A stretch of 37,944 nt of DNA from a virus, in the IMG/VR virus record IMGVR_UViG_3300025717_000003, positions 1-37,944 of that record; one strand, given 5' to 3'. The stretch's first letter is position 1. Every line of letters begins with the position of its first letter. The position numbers were made by a program, and so were the translations under genes. Positions 7,417-36,478 of this stretch are shown one piece after another. The notes below the pieces were generated by a model. That model was not told the origin of the DNA, did no database searches, and saw only the letters and a list, made by a program, of their open reading frames with translations.

Positions 7417-7920
7417 ATGAAGTTCAGAGACATACCGCAGATCAGTAGGGCAAGCTACCAGACAGACGTGCCGCTTGATGCCATTGAGGACACGTTGGCA
7501 CGATACCAGCAACAGTATAACTTGAACATGGAGCCAGACTTTCAACGCGCACACGTCTGGACAGAAGAACAGCAGGTACGATTCGTTGAATTCCTGTTGC
7601 GTGGAGGGCAGAGCGGACGCACCATCCTTTTCAACCATCCAGGCTGGATGACGACATTCAAGGGTGAGTTTGTGCTGGTTGACGGTTTGCAACGATTGAC
7701 AGCAATACTCAGGTTCCTTCGAGGTGAAATTAAGGCGTTCGGGCTTGCCATTGATGAGTTTGAGGGCCGTATCCCAACGGGCATTTCGCTGACGTTGCAA
7801 GTCAACGATCTCAAGACCCGCGACGACGTGCTGCAATGGTACGTTGACCTCAACGCTGGCGGGACGGTTCATACCGATGAAGAAATCGCTAAAGTGAAAC
7901 GGATGAAGGAACAGGTTTGA
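7417..7920 (+). CDS. DUF262 / ParB-superfamily protein, GC-rich foreign gene
   Basis: This 167-residue protein shows the DUF262 pattern: an N-terminal PDFQRAHVWTEEQQ segment, then FVEFLLRGG and the DGLQRLTAI motif of the ParB/GmrS-type fold. Long relatives such as GmrSD are type IV restriction enzymes against modified DNA. This protein is only the N-terminal domain, lacks the C-terminal HNH (DUF1524) region and ends soon after it. Its G+C is about 50% in a sampled line, against about 35% in nearby genes. I infer a transferred single-domain protein placed in a phage promoter cassette; it could act as an NTP-dependent regulator or an anti-restriction decoy. Confidence 0.8.
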   Translation: MKFRDIPQISRASYQTDVPLDAIEDTLARYQQQYNLNMEPDFQRAHVWTEEQQVRFVEFLLRGGQSGRTILFNHPGWMTTFKGEFVLVDGLQRLTAILRFLRGEIKAFGLAIDEFEGRIPTGISLTLQVNDLKTRDDVLQWYVDLNAGGTVHTDEEIAKVKRMKEQV

Positions 7921-10954: not shown

Positions 10955-12738
10955 ATGAGTATCAATGAAGAGCTATGGAAAGGAAAGTATGCTGCATACC
11001 CTGGTGAAACATATGAACAGGGTTGTACGAGGGTAAGTGAAGCCCTAGGTATTCCTCAATTAGAAAGCATACTGAGGAAAGAGTTATTTAGTGTTGGTGG
11101 TAGAGTTTGGTATGGAGCTGGGAAGTCTAAGCCGTATATGGTCAATTGTGGGTTGTTCAGTGTTGACGATAGTGCAGAAGGTTGGGCTAGTTTAGCACAC
11201 GATGTACAACTATCCCTGATGAAGGGTATGGGATGTGGAGTAGATTATTCGGCGATACGGCCTTATGGGTCATACATAGCTGGTAGTGGTGGTACGGCTA
11301 GTGGTGCAATAAGTACAATGCATATTATCAATGAGATTGCTAGACACATTATGCAAGGGAACACGAGAAGGGCGGCTTTGCTCTCTCAACTTCACTGGAA
11401 ACACGGTGATATGGATACCTTCATAGACGTTAAGAACTGGAATGAGGAGTATACCCGACTAAAGACAATAGATGCAATAGGCTACCCAGCACCACTGGAT
11501 TTAACTAACGTATCTGTTCGGCTAGATAATGACTTTCTAGATGCATATTACAATGGAGATAGTGTTGCTCATACGGTGTGGAATACGACTACATATAATA
11601 TGTTTAGCACTTCAGAACCCGGTATTCGATTTAATGCTGATAACCAGATATTAACCAATGCGTGAAATATAACGCGCCTTTAGCCAGTAATGGCTATCGA
11701 ATAACCTGAATAACAGGGAAAGCCTAGAGATAGGCAATCCTGTGGGGAATAGTGCAAAGATGCAAACTAACCCGCAACGACTACCAAAGGATACCCTACA
11801 CCGAAGTGGGGTATGTGGTATAGTCTGAACTGCACATATAATCTAATCTATGAAAGTGCAGATAACATAATGGTGGTGAAGTGGTTTCAGCATATGATAG
11901 AGATACTTGTGTTCTAGGAAGTATAAATCTAGCAAACATCACACACATAGACCAAATGGAAGAAGTAATCAAATGGGCTATGCTAGCTTTATTGCGCATA
12001 CGACATAGAAGTATGTATCCTACTGAGGAATTCAAGCAAGTAGCAACACAACACCCTCGTGTTGGGCTAGGTGTTATGGGCTTGCATAACTGGCTTATAC
12101 ATCGAGGGTTGAAATATGAATGGTGCAATGAGCTAGATGAATTGTTCAGTGTTTTGCAAGATATGGCAATCTATTATGGGGAGTATTGGTGCAATAAGTA
12201 TGGGTATGCTCAATTAGAAGGTCATATAGCGCACGCGCCAACAGGTAGTATTTCTAGATTGTTTGGTGGGGTATCATCTGGCATTGAACCAATATTTGCA
12301 CTTGCGTATAAGTGGCGATATACGCTTAACAATGAGCTACAAGAGCAAGTAGTAATTGATAGCAATGTTGAGACATTTATGCAACAAGGCATATATGTTA
12401 GCAGCATTGAAGATGCGTATAGCCTTGCCGCTTTAGAAGATGGGTTTAAGCGTCGGGTAGAAATGCAAGCACATATTCAGAAGTATTGCGATAATGCCAT
12501 AAGCAGCACTATCAATCTACCACAATGGGGAACAGAACATAACAATGAGCAAACTCTAGACAAATACCGTGCTATCTTGCTTAGGTATATGCCATATCTA
12601 AGGGGAATAACAGTATATGCTAATGGTAGTCGTAGTGGACAACCATTGACAGCTATACCAATTGAGGAAGCATTGAGAGAGAAGCACGAGACAGACAGCC
12701 AGTACAGTAATTGTAGCAATGGTGCTTGTGCTCTATAG
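10955..12738 (+). CDS. nrdJ: Class II (B12-dependent) ribonucleotide reductase, intron-split
   Basis: Exons 10955-11663 and 11873-12738 join to a 524-residue reductase. It reduces ribonucleotides to deoxyribonucleotides with a cobalamin radical. Visible features are Cys65 (MVNC), the active-site motif NACGE (235-239) with radical Cys237, Cys249 in YDRDTC, GVMGLHNWL, the late GITVYANGSRSGQPL signature, and the redox tail Cys517-x4-Cys522. Cysteine spacing fits class II NrdJ, and no NrdB-type subunit or N-terminal ATP-cone is present. Without splicing the first exon ends at a TGA made by the intron, so the enzyme depends on correct splicing. Confidence 0.9.
11664..11872 (+). ncRNA. Group I self-splicing intron in nrdJ
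   Basis: This 209-nt ORF-less intron has the standard features. The last exon base is U (11663) and the last intron base is G (11872). Exon GCGU pairs with intron GCGC (11674-11677), giving the U-G wobble of P1. GACTA (11779-11783) pairs with TAGTC (11821-11825) as P7. ATACCC/GGGTAT with an inner CAC-CGAA-GTG (11791-11814) forms P8. Joining restores Asn-Ala-Cys-Gly-Glu in frame. The junction could shift by one base because G flanks both ends; the U-G rule favours the position given. Confidence 0.93.
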
Positions 12739-13074: not shown

Positions 13075-13153
13075 AGAAAAGAGTTTTGCTAGTTTCTCTT
13101 CATTATAAAAACTAGCATATACTACTAATAGTAAACAGAAAGAAGGTAACAAG
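13075..13153 (+). promoter_or_regulatory. Type II leader, copy 2
   Basis: GAGTTTTGCTAGTTTCTCTT, then ATTATA, the second inverted-repeat arm AAAACTAG, TATACTACTAATAGTAAAC and AGAAAGAAGG. This copy has a few extra bases in the loop of the CTAGTTT/AAACTAG inverted repeat compared with 766-842 and 13365-13435. The changing loop beside constant arms supports a hairpin. Confidence 0.65.
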
Positions 13154-13360
13154 ATGAAGGAAGTATCAATGGTGGAATACCTTGATCATAAGATTATAGT
13201 GTCGAAAACACCTAGTGAATATCAGGCAGTTATTATAAAGCCTGATGGAACCTTTGCAAAAGTCACACAGAACGGTTGTATTTGCTATACTAATGCAAAG
13301 TACAAAGGGGATTGCATCACCCTGGCAAGACACATTATTATGTTAGAAGAATACGTATAA
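13154..13360 (+). CDS. Small paralogous protein, member 2
   Basis: This 68-residue protein starts MKEVSMVEYLDHKIIVSK. It is related to the 12850 gene and, at DNA level, to the truncated copy at 13436. It is expressed from the type II leader, unlike its paralogue, so coding regions and leaders have been recombined. No motif identifies its role. It contains three Cys/His residues near the middle, without a metal-site spacing I trust. Confidence 0.62.
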   Translation: MKEVSMVEYLDHKIIVSKTPSEYQAVIIKPDGTFAKVTQNGCICYTNAKYKGDCITLARHIIMLEEYV

Positions 13361-13364
13361 CGGA

Positions 13365-13435
13365 AAAGAGTTTTGCTAGTTTCTCTTCCAAAAACTAGTA
13401 TATACTACTAATAGTACACAGAAAGAGGGTATACG
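13365..13435 (+). promoter_or_regulatory. Type II leader, copy 3
   Basis: Nearly identical to the leader at 766-842 (read on the minus strand), including the CTTCCAAAAACTAG loop version. It ends AGAAAGAGGGTATACG before the truncated gene. Confidence 0.65.
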
Positions 13436-13489
13436 ATGAAGGAAGAATCAATGGTGGAATACCTTGGACATAAGATTATAGTTATGTAA
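13436..13489 (+). pseudogene. Truncated third copy of the small paralogue
   Basis: ATG AAG GAA GAA TCA continues as MVEYLGHKIIVM before a TAA, giving only 17 residues. The first 12 or so codons match the 13154 gene almost exactly and then the similarity stops. It marks an incomplete tandem duplication of leader plus gene. Confidence 0.7.
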
Positions 13490-13525: not shown

Positions 13526-13596
13526 GGGGATGATAGGGTTTCGACTAGAGTAGGGGTTAGCTTAACGGTCAAGGGGTATACCTTCGGGTATGCCCC
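13526..13596 (+). ncRNA. Structured leader before the DpdA/transporter operon
   Basis: The 5' part, GGGGATGATAGGGTTTCGAC, is followed by a GTTA-GCT-TAAC mini-hairpin and a strong hairpin GGGGTATACC-TTCG-GGTATGCCCC (13573-13596) with a UUCG tetraloop. It lies 28 nt before the transglycosylase-like gene, where no canonical terminator is needed. A riboswitch sensing a queuosine precursor would fit the two following genes, but it does not match the preQ1 class I consensus as I know it. The first 20 bases also resemble a tmRNA 5' end. Structure seen; function unproven. Confidence 0.45.
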
Positions 13597-13623
13597 ATAC
13601 TTATCAATTTATGAGGTTATACT

Positions 13624-14385
13624 ATGAAGTTTTATGTAGGTATACATATGCCAAACTGGATACCTCGAATGCAGATACCATTTATGGTTTCGAGAAGGAT
13701 ATTAGAGAAAAGAAAGAAGTTACCACGTGCAAACGTGGGATATGCGCTAGATAGCGGTGGATTTACTGAGTTGTCTAAATATGGTAAGTGGAGCCAAACT
13801 CCACAACAATATACCGACATAGTACATAGAATAGTAGACGGTGTAGGAAGAAAGCCAGACTTTATTGCACCACAAGATAGTATGTGTGAACCCTTTATAT
13901 GCCAAAAGACTAAAAGAACAGTAGAACAGCACATGGTAGATACTGTTGAGAACTTCATTTTACTACGTCAACTTGTAGATACATCCCTTTATGTATTGCC
14001 AGTCATACAAGGGTATACGCTAAATGAGTATCTACAGTGCATATACCTGTATGAGCAATACGGTATTGTGTTATCTCAATATCCTATTGTAGGGCTAGGG
14101 TCTATATGTAGACGACAAAAGACGAAAGAGGGTATCAATATAATCCAAACCATTGCTAGTATGGGTATATCACTCCACGGTTTTGGCTTAAAGACAACAG
14201 CACTAAAAGAAGTCTCTACCAATATTGCAAGTGCGGACAGTATGGCATGGTCATTCGCTGGTAGAAGGATACCGAACCCTAGCGGCAAGACTAAGAACCT
14301 GGCGAATGACTACGGATATATGATGAAGTGGTATAATACGTTAAAAGATAGTTGTGAGGGGTTAAATGAAGAAATATGTTGCTGA
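13624..14385 (+). CDS. dpdA: DpdA-like DNA 7-deazaguanine transglycosylase
   Basis: This 253-residue protein belongs to the tRNA-guanine-transglycosylase superfamily. ALDSGGFTEL (41-50) is the base-binding DSGGF motif of TGT; it is followed by an IAPQDSMCEP segment, an IVGLGSICRR strand end, HGFGLKT and ASADSMAWSF, whose Asp may be the nucleophile. It is much shorter than tRNA enzymes and lacks their zinc-site Cys cluster. Phage DpdA proteins of this type exchange guanine in DNA for preQ0 or a derivative, protecting it from restriction. The next gene, a queuosine-precursor transporter, supports this reading. The start follows ATGAGGTT, a modest ribosome site. Confidence 0.8.
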   Translation: MKFYVGIHMPNWIPRMQIPFMVSRRILEKRKKLPRANVGYALDSGGFTELSKYGKWSQTPQQYTDIVHRIVDGVGRKPDFIAPQDSMCEPFICQKTKRTVEQHMVDTVENFILLRQLVDTSLYVLPVIQGYTLNEYLQCIYLYEQYGIVLSQYPIVGLGSICRRQKTKEGINIIQTIASMGISLHGFGLKTTALKEVSTNIASADSMAWSFAGRRIPNPSGKTKNLANDYGYMMKWYNTLKDSCEGLNEEICC

Positions 14386-14842
14386 TGTACTGTACGTGCT
14401 TTCGGTTGTGTTGGCAAATACTATGGTAGGTATATTAGGAGAAAGTGCAGCATACATAATACCATTGGTGCTCATAGCTGTAACGATGACAACCAGGGAT
14501 ATATTGCACCAAACACGGAAACGGTGGTATATGTTCTTCCTTATTGGTGTTGGTAGTGTGTTGTCATATCTTCTTTGTGTAGACTTCTTACCCATTGCCA
14601 TTGCGTCGTCAAGTGCGTTCCTTGCCTCTGAGATTGTAGATTATATAGTATTCCAAAATCTCAAAGGTAGTTGGGCAACTCGTGCGTTCATAAGTAGTGT
14701 AATAAGTAGTCCAATCGACAGCGCGGTATTCATAACTATCGCGTTTGGTTTTAACCCCATACTAATTTTGGTTCAGACTACATTGAAAATTATAGGTGCA
14801 TTGTGGACAATTTGGGTATATGAGAAGGTAAAGGAAGGGTAA
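14366..14842 (+). CDS. VUT/YhhQ-type queuosine precursor transporter
   Basis: This 158-residue membrane protein has five or six hydrophobic segments. It matches the short VUT (DUF165, QPTR) family: VVLANTMVG at the start, MTTRDILHQ after the second segment, GVGSVLSYLL, then ASEIVDYIVFQ and SPIDSAVFITIAFG. The family imports preQ0, preQ1 or queuine; E. coli YhhQ is the studied member. It overlaps the DpdA-like gene by 20 nt. The phage shows no precursor synthesis genes (FolE, QueD, QueE, QueC) in this window, so I infer that it salvages the modified base from outside the cell. Confidence 0.82.
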   Translation: MKKYVADVLYVLSVVLANTMVGILGESAAYIIPLVLIAVTMTTRDILHQTRKRWYMFFLIGVGSVLSYLLCVDFLPIAIASSSAFLASEIVDYIVFQNLKGSWATRAFISSVISSPIDSAVFITIAFGFNPILILVQTTLKIIGALWTIWVYEKVKEG

Positions 14843-15304
14843 ATGCTATACGTAGGTATGGATTGTAGTATCAAAGATGTGGCTTTTGCAGTATCTAGCA
14901 AAAATGTTTCAGTACACTATAGTACTGGATTGTCCCTTGAAAGTGATATTGCAGAATATATGAGGAAGGCAAATGACGTATCTTACTGGCTTACATCACT
15001 TGATGAGGATTACACCTTACTTATTGACTTTACGATGTTTGCAATGAAAGCTAGACAATCACAAATGCGATTGAATAGCCTATTCATAGGGTGTATTATC
15101 GGTATAGTAGGTACAGACAATATAAAACTAATTGAACCGCTAAACGTCCGCAAGGCATTAGGACTAAAGGGGAATTGTGAGAAAGAATTGGTATACGAGA
15201 AATTCAATACATTGTATCCACAATACAATATCTATACATATACGATAAACCATATACAAGATGCTATTGTGTTGAGTGTTCTAGGGGAAAAGGGGAAACT
15301 ATGA
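14843..15304 (+). CDS. RuvC-like Holliday junction resolvase
   Basis: This 153-residue RNase H-fold nuclease has the acidic residues expected of RuvC. Asp7 lies in the first strand (YVGMDCSI), an Asp in LLIDF ends a later strand, and the C-terminal INHIQDAIVLS helix carries the final Asp with a preceding His. LIEPLNVRKALGLKGN resembles the RuvC P-x-x-V-K segment. It would cut four-way junctions before packaging or during recombination. It starts directly after the transporter stop (GGGTAA ATG) and overlaps the next gene by 4 nt (ATGA), so it belongs to the modification operon. Confidence 0.75.
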   Translation: MLYVGMDCSIKDVAFAVSSKNVSVHYSTGLSLESDIAEYMRKANDVSYWLTSLDEDYTLLIDFTMFAMKARQSQMRLNSLFIGCIIGIVGTDNIKLIEPLNVRKALGLKGNCEKELVYEKFNTLYPQYNIYTYTINHIQDAIVLSVLGEKGKL

Positions 15305-16128
15305 ACGTAGAAGAGATTATAGAACGCAAAATACCTGTGCTGGCTAGTTTTAGTGGGGGTAAAGATAGTTGTGCTATGGCACTATATTTGCTCTATGAGA
15401 GTGGAATACCAAAAGAGCAAATACGTCTCCTGTTCGCTGATACAGGATGGGAACATCATTACACTTACTCCACAGTACTACGAATGGCAATGCATCATCC
15501 TATACAAATAGTTAGGAGTAAGAAGTATGATGGTATGGTAGGACTTATGGAGAAACGAGGGATACCTACACAGTTAGTTAGATATTGCACCCAAGAACTA
15601 AAGGTATTTCCTTTAAGAGAATATCAGAATAGGTATGATGAGTACATAACTGCTAAAGGTATACGGAAAGAAGAGGGTACGTATAGGAATGGTAGGGGTG
15701 AAGTTGACGAATTTGAATTAGATTTAGGTACTATGATGTATTCATGGTACCCAATAAGGAATTTCACTTTGCAAGATGTGTGGGATATACACGCAAAGTA
15801 TAGGTTTGAGCGTAATAAGTTATATGATTTAGGTTGTAACCGTGTGGGGTGTATGCCCTGCATTTATGCTAGTAAATCCATACTTAAACTTACTGGAGAA
15901 CTTTTACCAGAACACATAGAAGAAGTACGCAAAGCAGAACAGAAAAGAAACTTTCCGTTCATATCTCCTATAGGCAAGGCTAAGTTTCATAACAAGGTAG
16001 CAAACAACGGTAAGCCATATGCTGATATTGACGCAATACTTAAGTGGGCTAATATGACAACGAAAGAAGTAAGAGCGTATAACCCAGAGGATGACCAGGA
16101 TACTTGTAGTAGTGGATTATGTGAATAA
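15301..16128 (+). CDS. PAPS-reductase-family PP-loop protein with Cys cluster
   Basis: This 275-residue protein has the PP-loop SGGKDS (18-23), FADTGWEH (45-52), RYCTQELK (94-101) and a GCNRVGCMPC cluster (178-187). With Cys96 these make a likely Fe-S site. Such proteins adenylate a substrate or handle sulfur. Relatives include PAPS reductase and the DndC protein of DNA phosphorothioation. Phages often carry them with unknown substrate. Its place behind a DNA transglycosylase makes a further step in nucleic-acid modification plausible. The C-terminal CSSGLCE adds two more cysteines. No DndA, DndD or DndE partner is visible. Confidence 0.8.
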   Translation: MNVEEIIERKIPVLASFSGGKDSCAMALYLLYESGIPKEQIRLLFADTGWEHHYTYSTVLRMAMHHPIQIVRSKKYDGMVGLMEKRGIPTQLVRYCTQELKVFPLREYQNRYDEYITAKGIRKEEGTYRNGRGEVDEFELDLGTMMYSWYPIRNFTLQDVWDIHAKYRFERNKLYDLGCNRVGCMPCIYASKSILKLTGELLPEHIEEVRKAEQKRNFPFISPIGKAKFHNKVANNGKPYADIDAILKWANMTTKEVRAYNPEDDQDTCSSGLCE

Positions 16129-34717: not shown

Positions 34718-35457
34718 TCCCAGATTTTATACTTATGACGAATGAGTACTGGCATACCATATACCAACAACGTCTTACCGTCGTTAGCTATGTCTACCCC
34801 ATCAGGTATACCGTAGTGGTTATGAGTATGAAACGAATATCCAAGTATCTTTGTTGGTACATCTGTGTTCATTGCATACGATAGGGCGAATTGTTGTTTT
34901 GCATAATGTTCTAGCAAGGAATTAGCCTGATACCAGTATCGCATATACGCAATGTATAGCGCAAGTAGATTACGTATAGTACCCACTAGAACACCAGTAT
35001 TATACCCTACCATATTATGACTGTTGGGAAAAGCATAGTGGTATAGCTCTTCATCTTTTATGGTAAGTCTCTTTGCCATAGCATACAAGGAACTATCGTA
35101 CCAATTATCTATCCCAGCATACACATAATGCGATATGTCCATAGGAACATCAATAAACATCAAGTCCCTTTGATATACTATATCAGCATCAGTAAACACT
35201 ACGATATCTTCTAATTGATATCCATTATCTAACAACCAAAACAAGTATTCACCGTGTTGCAGACAATTATTTATGCTGTCTTTAGCAGGATTTACCCGTA
35301 CATACTCTATGTAGTCTGTATCTTCTTTATCATATCCTACTGTGAATACTACTTTATCTACTGAGGTATTTTTGATATTGTCTAACGAAGTAATATAGGG
35401 TGCTGCTTTGTGCTCATATCCTTTGTCAAACCCTGTTGCTACTACTATTTTACGCAT
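34714..35457 (-). CDS. Glycosyltransferase with DxD motif
   Basis: I chose the ATG at 35457 because AAAGGGG lies 7 nt before it; an in-frame ATG at 35475 would extend further into the mutase gene. The 247-residue protein starts MRKIVVATGFDKGYEHKA, has Asp90-Ala-Asp92 in VVFTDADIVYQRD, then YNTGVLVGTIRN and a late FHTHNHYGIP. That is the plan of GT-A (GT8-like) enzymes acting with UDP-sugars. The start lies inside the mutase gene by 8 nt, so the two are made together and it may use UDP-galactofuranose, a logical but unproven link. Confidence 0.75.
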   Translation of the reverse strand: MRKIVVATGFDKGYEHKAAPYITSLDNIKNTSVDKVVFTVGYDKEDTDYIEYVRVNPAKDSINNCLQHGEYLFWLLDNGYQLEDIVVFTDADIVYQRDLMFIDVPMDISHYVYAGIDNWYDSSLYAMAKRLTIKDEELYHYAFPNSHNMVGYNTGVLVGTIRNLLALYIAYMRYWYQANSLLEHYAKQQFALSYAMNTDVPTKILGYSFHTHNHYGIPDGVDIANDGKTLLVYGMPVLIRHKYKIWD

Positions 35458-36478
35458 TATCATACCCCTTTGCAATCTTTAAACTACTTGCTATAACACT
35501 ATCCATATTCTGATATTGGTATAGACCTAGCCTACCTATAGGAATAATGTTTTTGGGTACATCTCTGGAGATATACTCCATATAGCTCTTATCAATAAGC
35601 CACGGCATAGGATATGCCTTTGTTCCTATAGCATCAGTAGTGTATTCTCTACATCTAATAGGATTATTGTAGTAGGAGATACGCGGTAAATTAGAAGATA
35701 GATACGTACGGGTATAGGGTATAGCCATATCTAGATGGTTGACTATGCTTTCTGTCTGATGGATTGTATCGGTATCTATACTCACATATCGGTATGGTAG
35801 ATACCACCCTGTAAGCTCTCCTATACAACCACTATAGAAATAAGTATCTTTTGGGCTATACATAGACATATCCCAAGATACACCATACTGAATACCTATA
35901 TTCTTATGGTTAATCATATTTTGCAGCATTGCAGTATATCCATTTATAGGTATACCCTGGTATTTATCTCGAAAGTATGATGTACTATAATCTTCCCGTA
36001 CTACCACGCGTTGAACTATACCCGGTGGTAGTTTTGATAGGGGCAATCCCCATTGTTTTCGACTATAACCAGAAAATACGATATTGGTATATGCTACCCC
36101 AAACCTATCTATCAGGTATTCATATGCATTGTTGTAAGTTCCTACACTAGGGTATGGGTAGTTGTGGTCTTCTCCATACACAGCATCTAAACTGCGTAAC
36201 GATACAGGCAAAGGTATCTCTCTATTTCCATACTTACCTATAACCTTATGTTCATATGGGTATATGTGTGTGAACCGTGACACATAGTCATACACCATCT
36301 TGTTGTTAGTATGGAAGATGTGCATACCGACTAGTTGGTATCCTTGCTCATCTTTCACCATACCACCGATAACACTATCTCTTTCGAGTATCTGTACTTT
36401 ATACCCTTTATCAGCAAGATATCCTGCTACGGTACACCCTGCTAAACCACTACCAACAACTATTATCTTTGTCCCCAT
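35450..36478 (-). CDS. glf: UDP-galactopyranose mutase
   Basis: This 342-residue flavoenzyme interconverts UDP-galactopyranose and UDP-galactofuranose. It shows the FAD motif VGSGLAG (8-14), GMHIFHTNN, YPYEHKV, LPVSL, a SGYSRKQWGLPLSKLPPGIV segment, DKYQGIPINGYTAML and a closing IPIGRLGLYQYQNMD, each recognisable from bacterial Glf. Length is near the usual 360-390. It is rare in phages. With two glycosyltransferases next to it, it probably supplies galactofuranose for decorating virion proteins, phage DNA or the host surface. The shared 16-bp motif at 36516 lies upstream. Confidence 0.9.
   Translation of the reverse strand: MGTKIIVVGSGLAGCTVAGYLADKGYKVQILERDSVIGGMVKDEQGYQLVGMHIFHTNNKMVYDYVSRFTHIYPYEHKVIGKYGNREIPLPVSLRSLDAVYGEDHNYPYPSVGTYNNAYEYLIDRFGVAYTNIVFSGYSRKQWGLPLSKLPPGIVQRVVVREDYSTSYFRDKYQGIPINGYTAMLQNMINHKNIGIQYGVSWDMSMYSPKDTYFYSGCIGELTGWYLPYRYVSIDTDTIHQTESIVNHLDMAIPYTRTYLSSNLPRISYYNNPIRCREYTTDAIGTKAYPMPWLIDKSYMEYISRDVPKNIIPIGRLGLYQYQNMDSVIASSLKIAKGYDNA

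Follow-up and report, generated by a model that had tools for sequence, protein, structure and literature searches.

The dpdA locus

The DNA analysed here, below called the window, is a virus record of 37,944 bases (G000) that has no terminal repeat and may be incomplete. Its plus strand carries a gene, dpdA (13624..14385), for a 253 amino acid protein of the TGT superfamily (PF23859, phrog_1279), a predicted DNA guanine transglycosylase with the motif DSGGF at D43. It is followed on the same strand by a gene of the VUT/QPTR family (YhhQ family; PF02592, phrog_4899; 14366..14842), encoding a protein of 158 amino acids with six predicted helices that is a predicted importer of queuosine precursors. 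The two reading frames overlap by 20 bases (14366-14385), dpdA being the first. The initial annotation had described a TGT-superfamily gene with DSGGF overlapped by a VUT/YhhQ gene, and order, strand and overlap were all found as described. Its start of dpdA at position 13526 had to be corrected: the actual open reading frame starts at 13624, and 13526 lies 98 bases upstream, out of frame, where a tmRNA 5'-end motif begins. Shine-Dalgarno-like sites, seen in the sequence, precede both genes: GAGG (13613..13616, plus strand) upstream of dpdA, and GAGGGG (14356..14361, plus strand), within dpdA, upstream of the VUT gene. The two genes may form a unit and are probably translated together.

Sequence and folding of the dpdA leader indicate a hairpin (13573..13596, plus strand) with a stem of 10 bp and a UUCG loop; poly-U is absent on its 3' side. 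A riboswitch in the leader was considered and rejected: no Rfam family reached its gathering score, and a weak tmRNA match was the sole hit. The sequence GGGGATGATAGGGTTTCGAC (window 13526-13545), upstream of dpdA, fits a tmRNA 5' end with zero mismatches, and a 22-mer of this motif recurs in an intact permuted tmRNA of another viral contig (L178:250-587). An acceptor piece belonging to the window copy was not found, and the copy seems to be a remnant. Further upstream, a small gene (13154-13360) is duplicated together with its leader within window 13076-13489. The second copy breaks off near 13489, immediately ahead of the tmRNA remnant and dpdA, and this suggests insertion of the segment at that place.

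The DpdA protein

The window protein is assigned to the DpdA family, with 192.8 bits (E 8.7e-57) against PF23859, above the curated cut-off of 27 bits, and an E value of 1.9e-63 against phrog_1279. A structure model built on 57 relatives had a mean pLDDT of 95.2. Its best fold match in the PDB was a tRNA-guanine transglycosylase, 4q8p (E 1.2e-5, TM 0.63), and its best viral fold match was a protein of mycobacteriophage Bella96 (TM 0.88); the sequence profile of DpdA found no match among PDB sequences. Residues D43, D85, Q129, G130 and G159 are invariant in the 57 relatives and D205 is conserved in at least 90 % of them. By analogy with TGT enzymes, D43 would be the aspartate of DSGGF and D205 the likely nucleophile. 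A profile alignment with E. coli TGT was weak (E 0.069), with the DSGGF correspondence alone visible, and D205 is probably the counterpart of the TGT nucleophile. As modelled, the window DpdA has a TGT fold with conserved putative active-site residues.

With such a fold the protein might act on host tRNA, the gene pair then altering a queuosine-type tRNA modification during infection and leaving DNA untouched. QPTR transporters indeed normally supply tRNA queuosine synthesis (PMC11130926). However, the window protein has 253 residues against 375 for E. coli TGT, it matches the DpdA family of Pfam and not the TGT family, and QueF, QueA and QueG-like genes were not seen among the scanned window proteins. 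We regard a tRNA target as improbable.

Phage relatives of the window DpdA come largely from mycobacteriophages, which make up 391 of the 400 phage records matched, at about 37-40 % identity. The Orion-type singleton DpdAs of mycobacteriophages belong to the same Pfam and PHROG families, and synthesis genes are absent from them as from the window; Orion itself, judged by its cluster mates, presumably falls in the PF23859/phrog_1279 group. One mycobacteriophage with a singleton DpdA, Murucutumbu, has no VUT gene nearby, whereas the window pairs its DpdA with an importer. A zinc-knuckle-like motif, C..H..C..C, lies close to the C-terminus of 61 of 171 relatives; it is lacking in the window DpdA (residues 215-236 region), and also in the DpdA of the closest relative of the window, G001.

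The putative transporter

The VUT protein scored 41.6 bits (E 2.1e-10) against PF02592, above the cut-off of 27.2 bits, and matched phrog_4899 with an E value of 1.1e-25. Its model consists of six helices (pLDDT 89.6). Comparison of this fold with the PDB gave no significant matches and a weak likeness to ECF S components (TM about 0.55). By profile comparison the protein is homologous to E. coli YhhQ (QPTR), which is matched by the VUT family profile with an E value of 1.8e-8, although the two differ in length (158 versus 221 amino acids) and are distant in sequence. Against TIGR00697, the NCBIfam equivalog for queuosine precursor transporters, it reached 25.7 bits, below the cut-off of 50.95. 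Because of these scores below the NCBIfam cut-offs, family membership is claimed here and equivalence with the transporter is not: judged by its sequence, the window protein is a member of the VUT/QPTR family and a predicted transporter, distant from the characterised ones. Members of this family differ in substrate, the E. coli QPTR taking preQ0 and preQ1 and the Chlamydia QPTR taking queuine (PMC11130926), so the imported base is not predictable from the sequence.

Precursor synthesis genes

Searches for QueC, PTPS/QueD, FolE and radical-SAM (QueE) proteins found no match in the 37,944-base window, which may be incomplete; the synthesis genes are missing there, as the initial annotation had stated. 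Among thirty window proteins scanned against Pfam no other queuosine-pathway family was found, QueF, QueA and QueG-like families included. The closest relative, G001, has 34,867 bases and a 127-bp direct terminal repeat, which marks it as an apparently complete, circular assembly. Its DpdA, 66-72 % identical to that of the window, spans the junction of the contig ends; the next gene, which overlaps it, encodes a VUT-family protein (phrog_4899, E 3e-20) that is 32 % identical to the window VUT. In G001, too, QueC, PTPS/QueD, FolE and radical-SAM proteins were all unmatched.

In 51 DpdA records VUT was present in at least 22, QueC in two, PTPS in two and FolE in one. The VUT counts are lower bounds, since the Pfam search missed the VUT of G001, and many of the viral records may be fragments. 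Any synthesis gene at all was carried by 2 of the 51 records, so the expectation that DpdA normally comes with synthesis genes does not hold for the PF23859 subfamily. No record had both VUT and a synthesis gene (0/51). A mutual exclusion of the two was nevertheless dismissed: with two records carrying synthesis genes the pattern lacks statistical significance, and both kinds of gene occur together in Seuratvirus CAjan and in Enterobacter phage EC151 (EC151: PMC8310023).

Recurrence of the DpdA-VUT pairing

Single-protein scans of viral contigs gave no matches. A DpdA profile succeeded instead, and yielded 80 viral and 80 bacterial loci, the latter mostly from Actinomycetota; the two sets overlap in some prophages (e.g. 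L078, L142). The VUT family profile was too diverse to serve as a search query. VUT lay beside DpdA in 22 of the 80 viral and 22 of the 80 bacterial loci, in all cases on the same strand, and was the most frequent neighbour family of DpdA in an unbiased clustering of neighbours. The distance between the genes was within 300 bases in 43 of 44 cases and within 35 bases in nearly all. With trimmed reading frames VUT precedes DpdA in 45 loci, and DpdA comes first in two, namely the window and Sinorhizobium phage phiLM21. VUT also stands beside DpdA on an Embleya plasmid. About 70 % of the PF23859 loci have no adjacent VUT, and the importer is therefore not required by all members of this family.

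Mapped on a DpdA tree (FastTree), the VUT label needed 22 changes, and supported branches make at least 6 of these unavoidable; shuffled labels needed 41. Gain or loss of the association has therefore happened repeatedly, which argues for a functional link beyond common descent alone; the pairing is not due to chance.

A second DpdA family shows the same arrangement. Six phage records, representing four phages, had a VUT match at E 1e-5, and in all of them VUT adjoins a DpdA of phrog_887, as the window pair adjoins. The four are Pectobacterium phage PEAT2, Acinetobacter phage AB3P2, Flyfo siphovirus Tbat1_6 and Escherichia phage ECO111 5-P. Their DpdAs, unlike that of the window, go undetected by PF23859; this is an independent pairing, and VUT adjacency recurs with two DpdA families, PF23859/phrog_1279 and phrog_887. 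Like the window, PEAT2, AB3P2 and Tbat1_6 lack QueC, PTPS and FolE. In the literature, of which coverage was partial, we found no description of such close and repeated DpdA-VUT adjacency involving two DpdA families, so that priority is uncertain.

Proposed import of a base and modification of phage DNA

The best reading of the locus, and a probable one, is a DNA base exchange fed by imported 7-deazaguanine. The VUT/QPTR protein would reside in the host membrane and import a free 7-deazaguanine base, most likely preQ0 or preQ1, and DpdA would exchange guanines of the phage DNA for this base after replication. As the base would be imported, synthesis of the precursor by the phage would be unnecessary. 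DNA modified in this way would resist some restriction enzymes, giving partial resistance. In other phages dPreQ0 makes up about 28 % (Rosebush) and about 32 % (CAjan) of the G, and deletion of dpdA in CAjan abolished both dPreQ0 and restriction resistance, the DNA being fully digested (PMC6884629). Salvage modification had already been put forward in the initial annotation. The gene identities and the missing synthesis genes agree with it, and it is strengthened by the same pair, again without synthesis genes, in the apparently complete G001 and by the recurrent adjacency; transport by the VUT protein, the identity of the imported base, action on DNA and protection from restriction are predictions.

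Uptake of precursor has been considered before. Phages that have DpdA and lack synthesis genes were reported by Hutinet et al. (2019; PMC6884629), who proposed for them a host or exogenous precursor and noted YhhQ homologues in phages that did not correlate with any group. YhhQ is also found in about 9 % of bacterial dpd islands (PMC11888242). What is new is evidence that the two genes recur as a unit; the precursor-uptake idea itself had been published (PMC6884629).

The base could instead come mostly from the queuosine pathway of the host, DpdA acting on DNA and VUT topping up the supply. Like the window, CAjan and EC151 have DpdA and a VUT-family protein, in their case a preQ0 transporter, but unlike the window they carry FolE, QueD, QueE and QueC; for EC151 it was proposed that the transporter raises the preQ0 level alongside the full synthesis pathway (PMC8310023). 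The many PF23859 loci without an adjacent VUT would also fit a supply by the host. The window and G001, however, have kept an importer in the absence of synthesis genes. Furthermore, mycobacteria, the hosts of most described relatives, have no queuosine pathway (PMC6884629), and the bacterial DpdA loci belong mainly to Actinomycetota. Supply chiefly by the host is considered unlikely.

A change of function in singleton DpdAs has also been suggested as a possibility, and in the DNA of Orion, a phage of this group, 7-deazaguanine was not detectable; Orion and its host both lack precursor synthesis (Hutinet et al. 2019; PMC6884629). The window DpdA could accordingly be inactive or have another role, such as attachment of 7-deazaguanine to protein; in type IV CBASS, a TGT-family enzyme is reported to take part in nucleobase-protein conjugation (PMC11996544). 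The conservation of the putative active-site positions across the DpdA family speaks against inactivity, and neither DpdA (P0001) nor VUT (P0002) of the window was matched in PADLOC (2023 library). The recurrent pairing with a precursor importer, moreover, implies that a base is used. Divergence of this kind appears improbable to us.

Returning to base exchange fed by import, a broader proposal, which we advance tentatively and hold to be somewhat doubtful, is that DpdA and VUT constitute a self-contained, mobile, salvage-only module that was assembled repeatedly and travels in phages, prophages and plasmids. Singleton PF23859 DpdAs would then be active and dependent on import, and Orion-type phages would be unmodified just for want of the base. 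Most phages with a PF23859 DpdA lack precursor synthesis; the pairing with an importer makes the putative activity of such DpdAs testable. If DpdA does draw on an imported base, the restriction protection of the DNA of such phages depends on what neighbouring microbes release.

Other genes in the window

Two genes after VUT lies a gene (15301-16128) for a PAPS-reductase-like ATP-pyrophosphatase with weak similarity to SspD and BrxP. It was considered as the missing QueC and rejected, its Pfam match being PAPS_reduct only and QueC being unmatched in the window. Similar genes occur near DpdA in Streptomyces phages, on a M. aubagnense plasmid and in another contig (G014). The linkage to DpdA is loose and largely confined to one Streptomyces phage lineage, a further reason for rejecting the gene as the missing QueC.

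The class II ribonucleotide reductase gene of the window is split into two reading frames (10955-11665 and 11881-12738) with about 215 non-coding bases between them (11665-11881). The interruption is conserved in G001 (L175 5192-5494) at about 71 % identity. It was unmatched in Rfam at E values up to 1, and contains ACGACTACC and GGTATAGTCTGA, which resemble the P7 strands of a group I intron. In a region of early type, 7417-7917 encodes a protein with a GmrSD N-terminal domain that weakly resembles the defence proteins NsnA and PD-T4-2_A. A UDP-galactopyranose mutase-like protein (PF03275, E 2.8e-29), unusual for a phage of this size, is encoded at 35453-36478.
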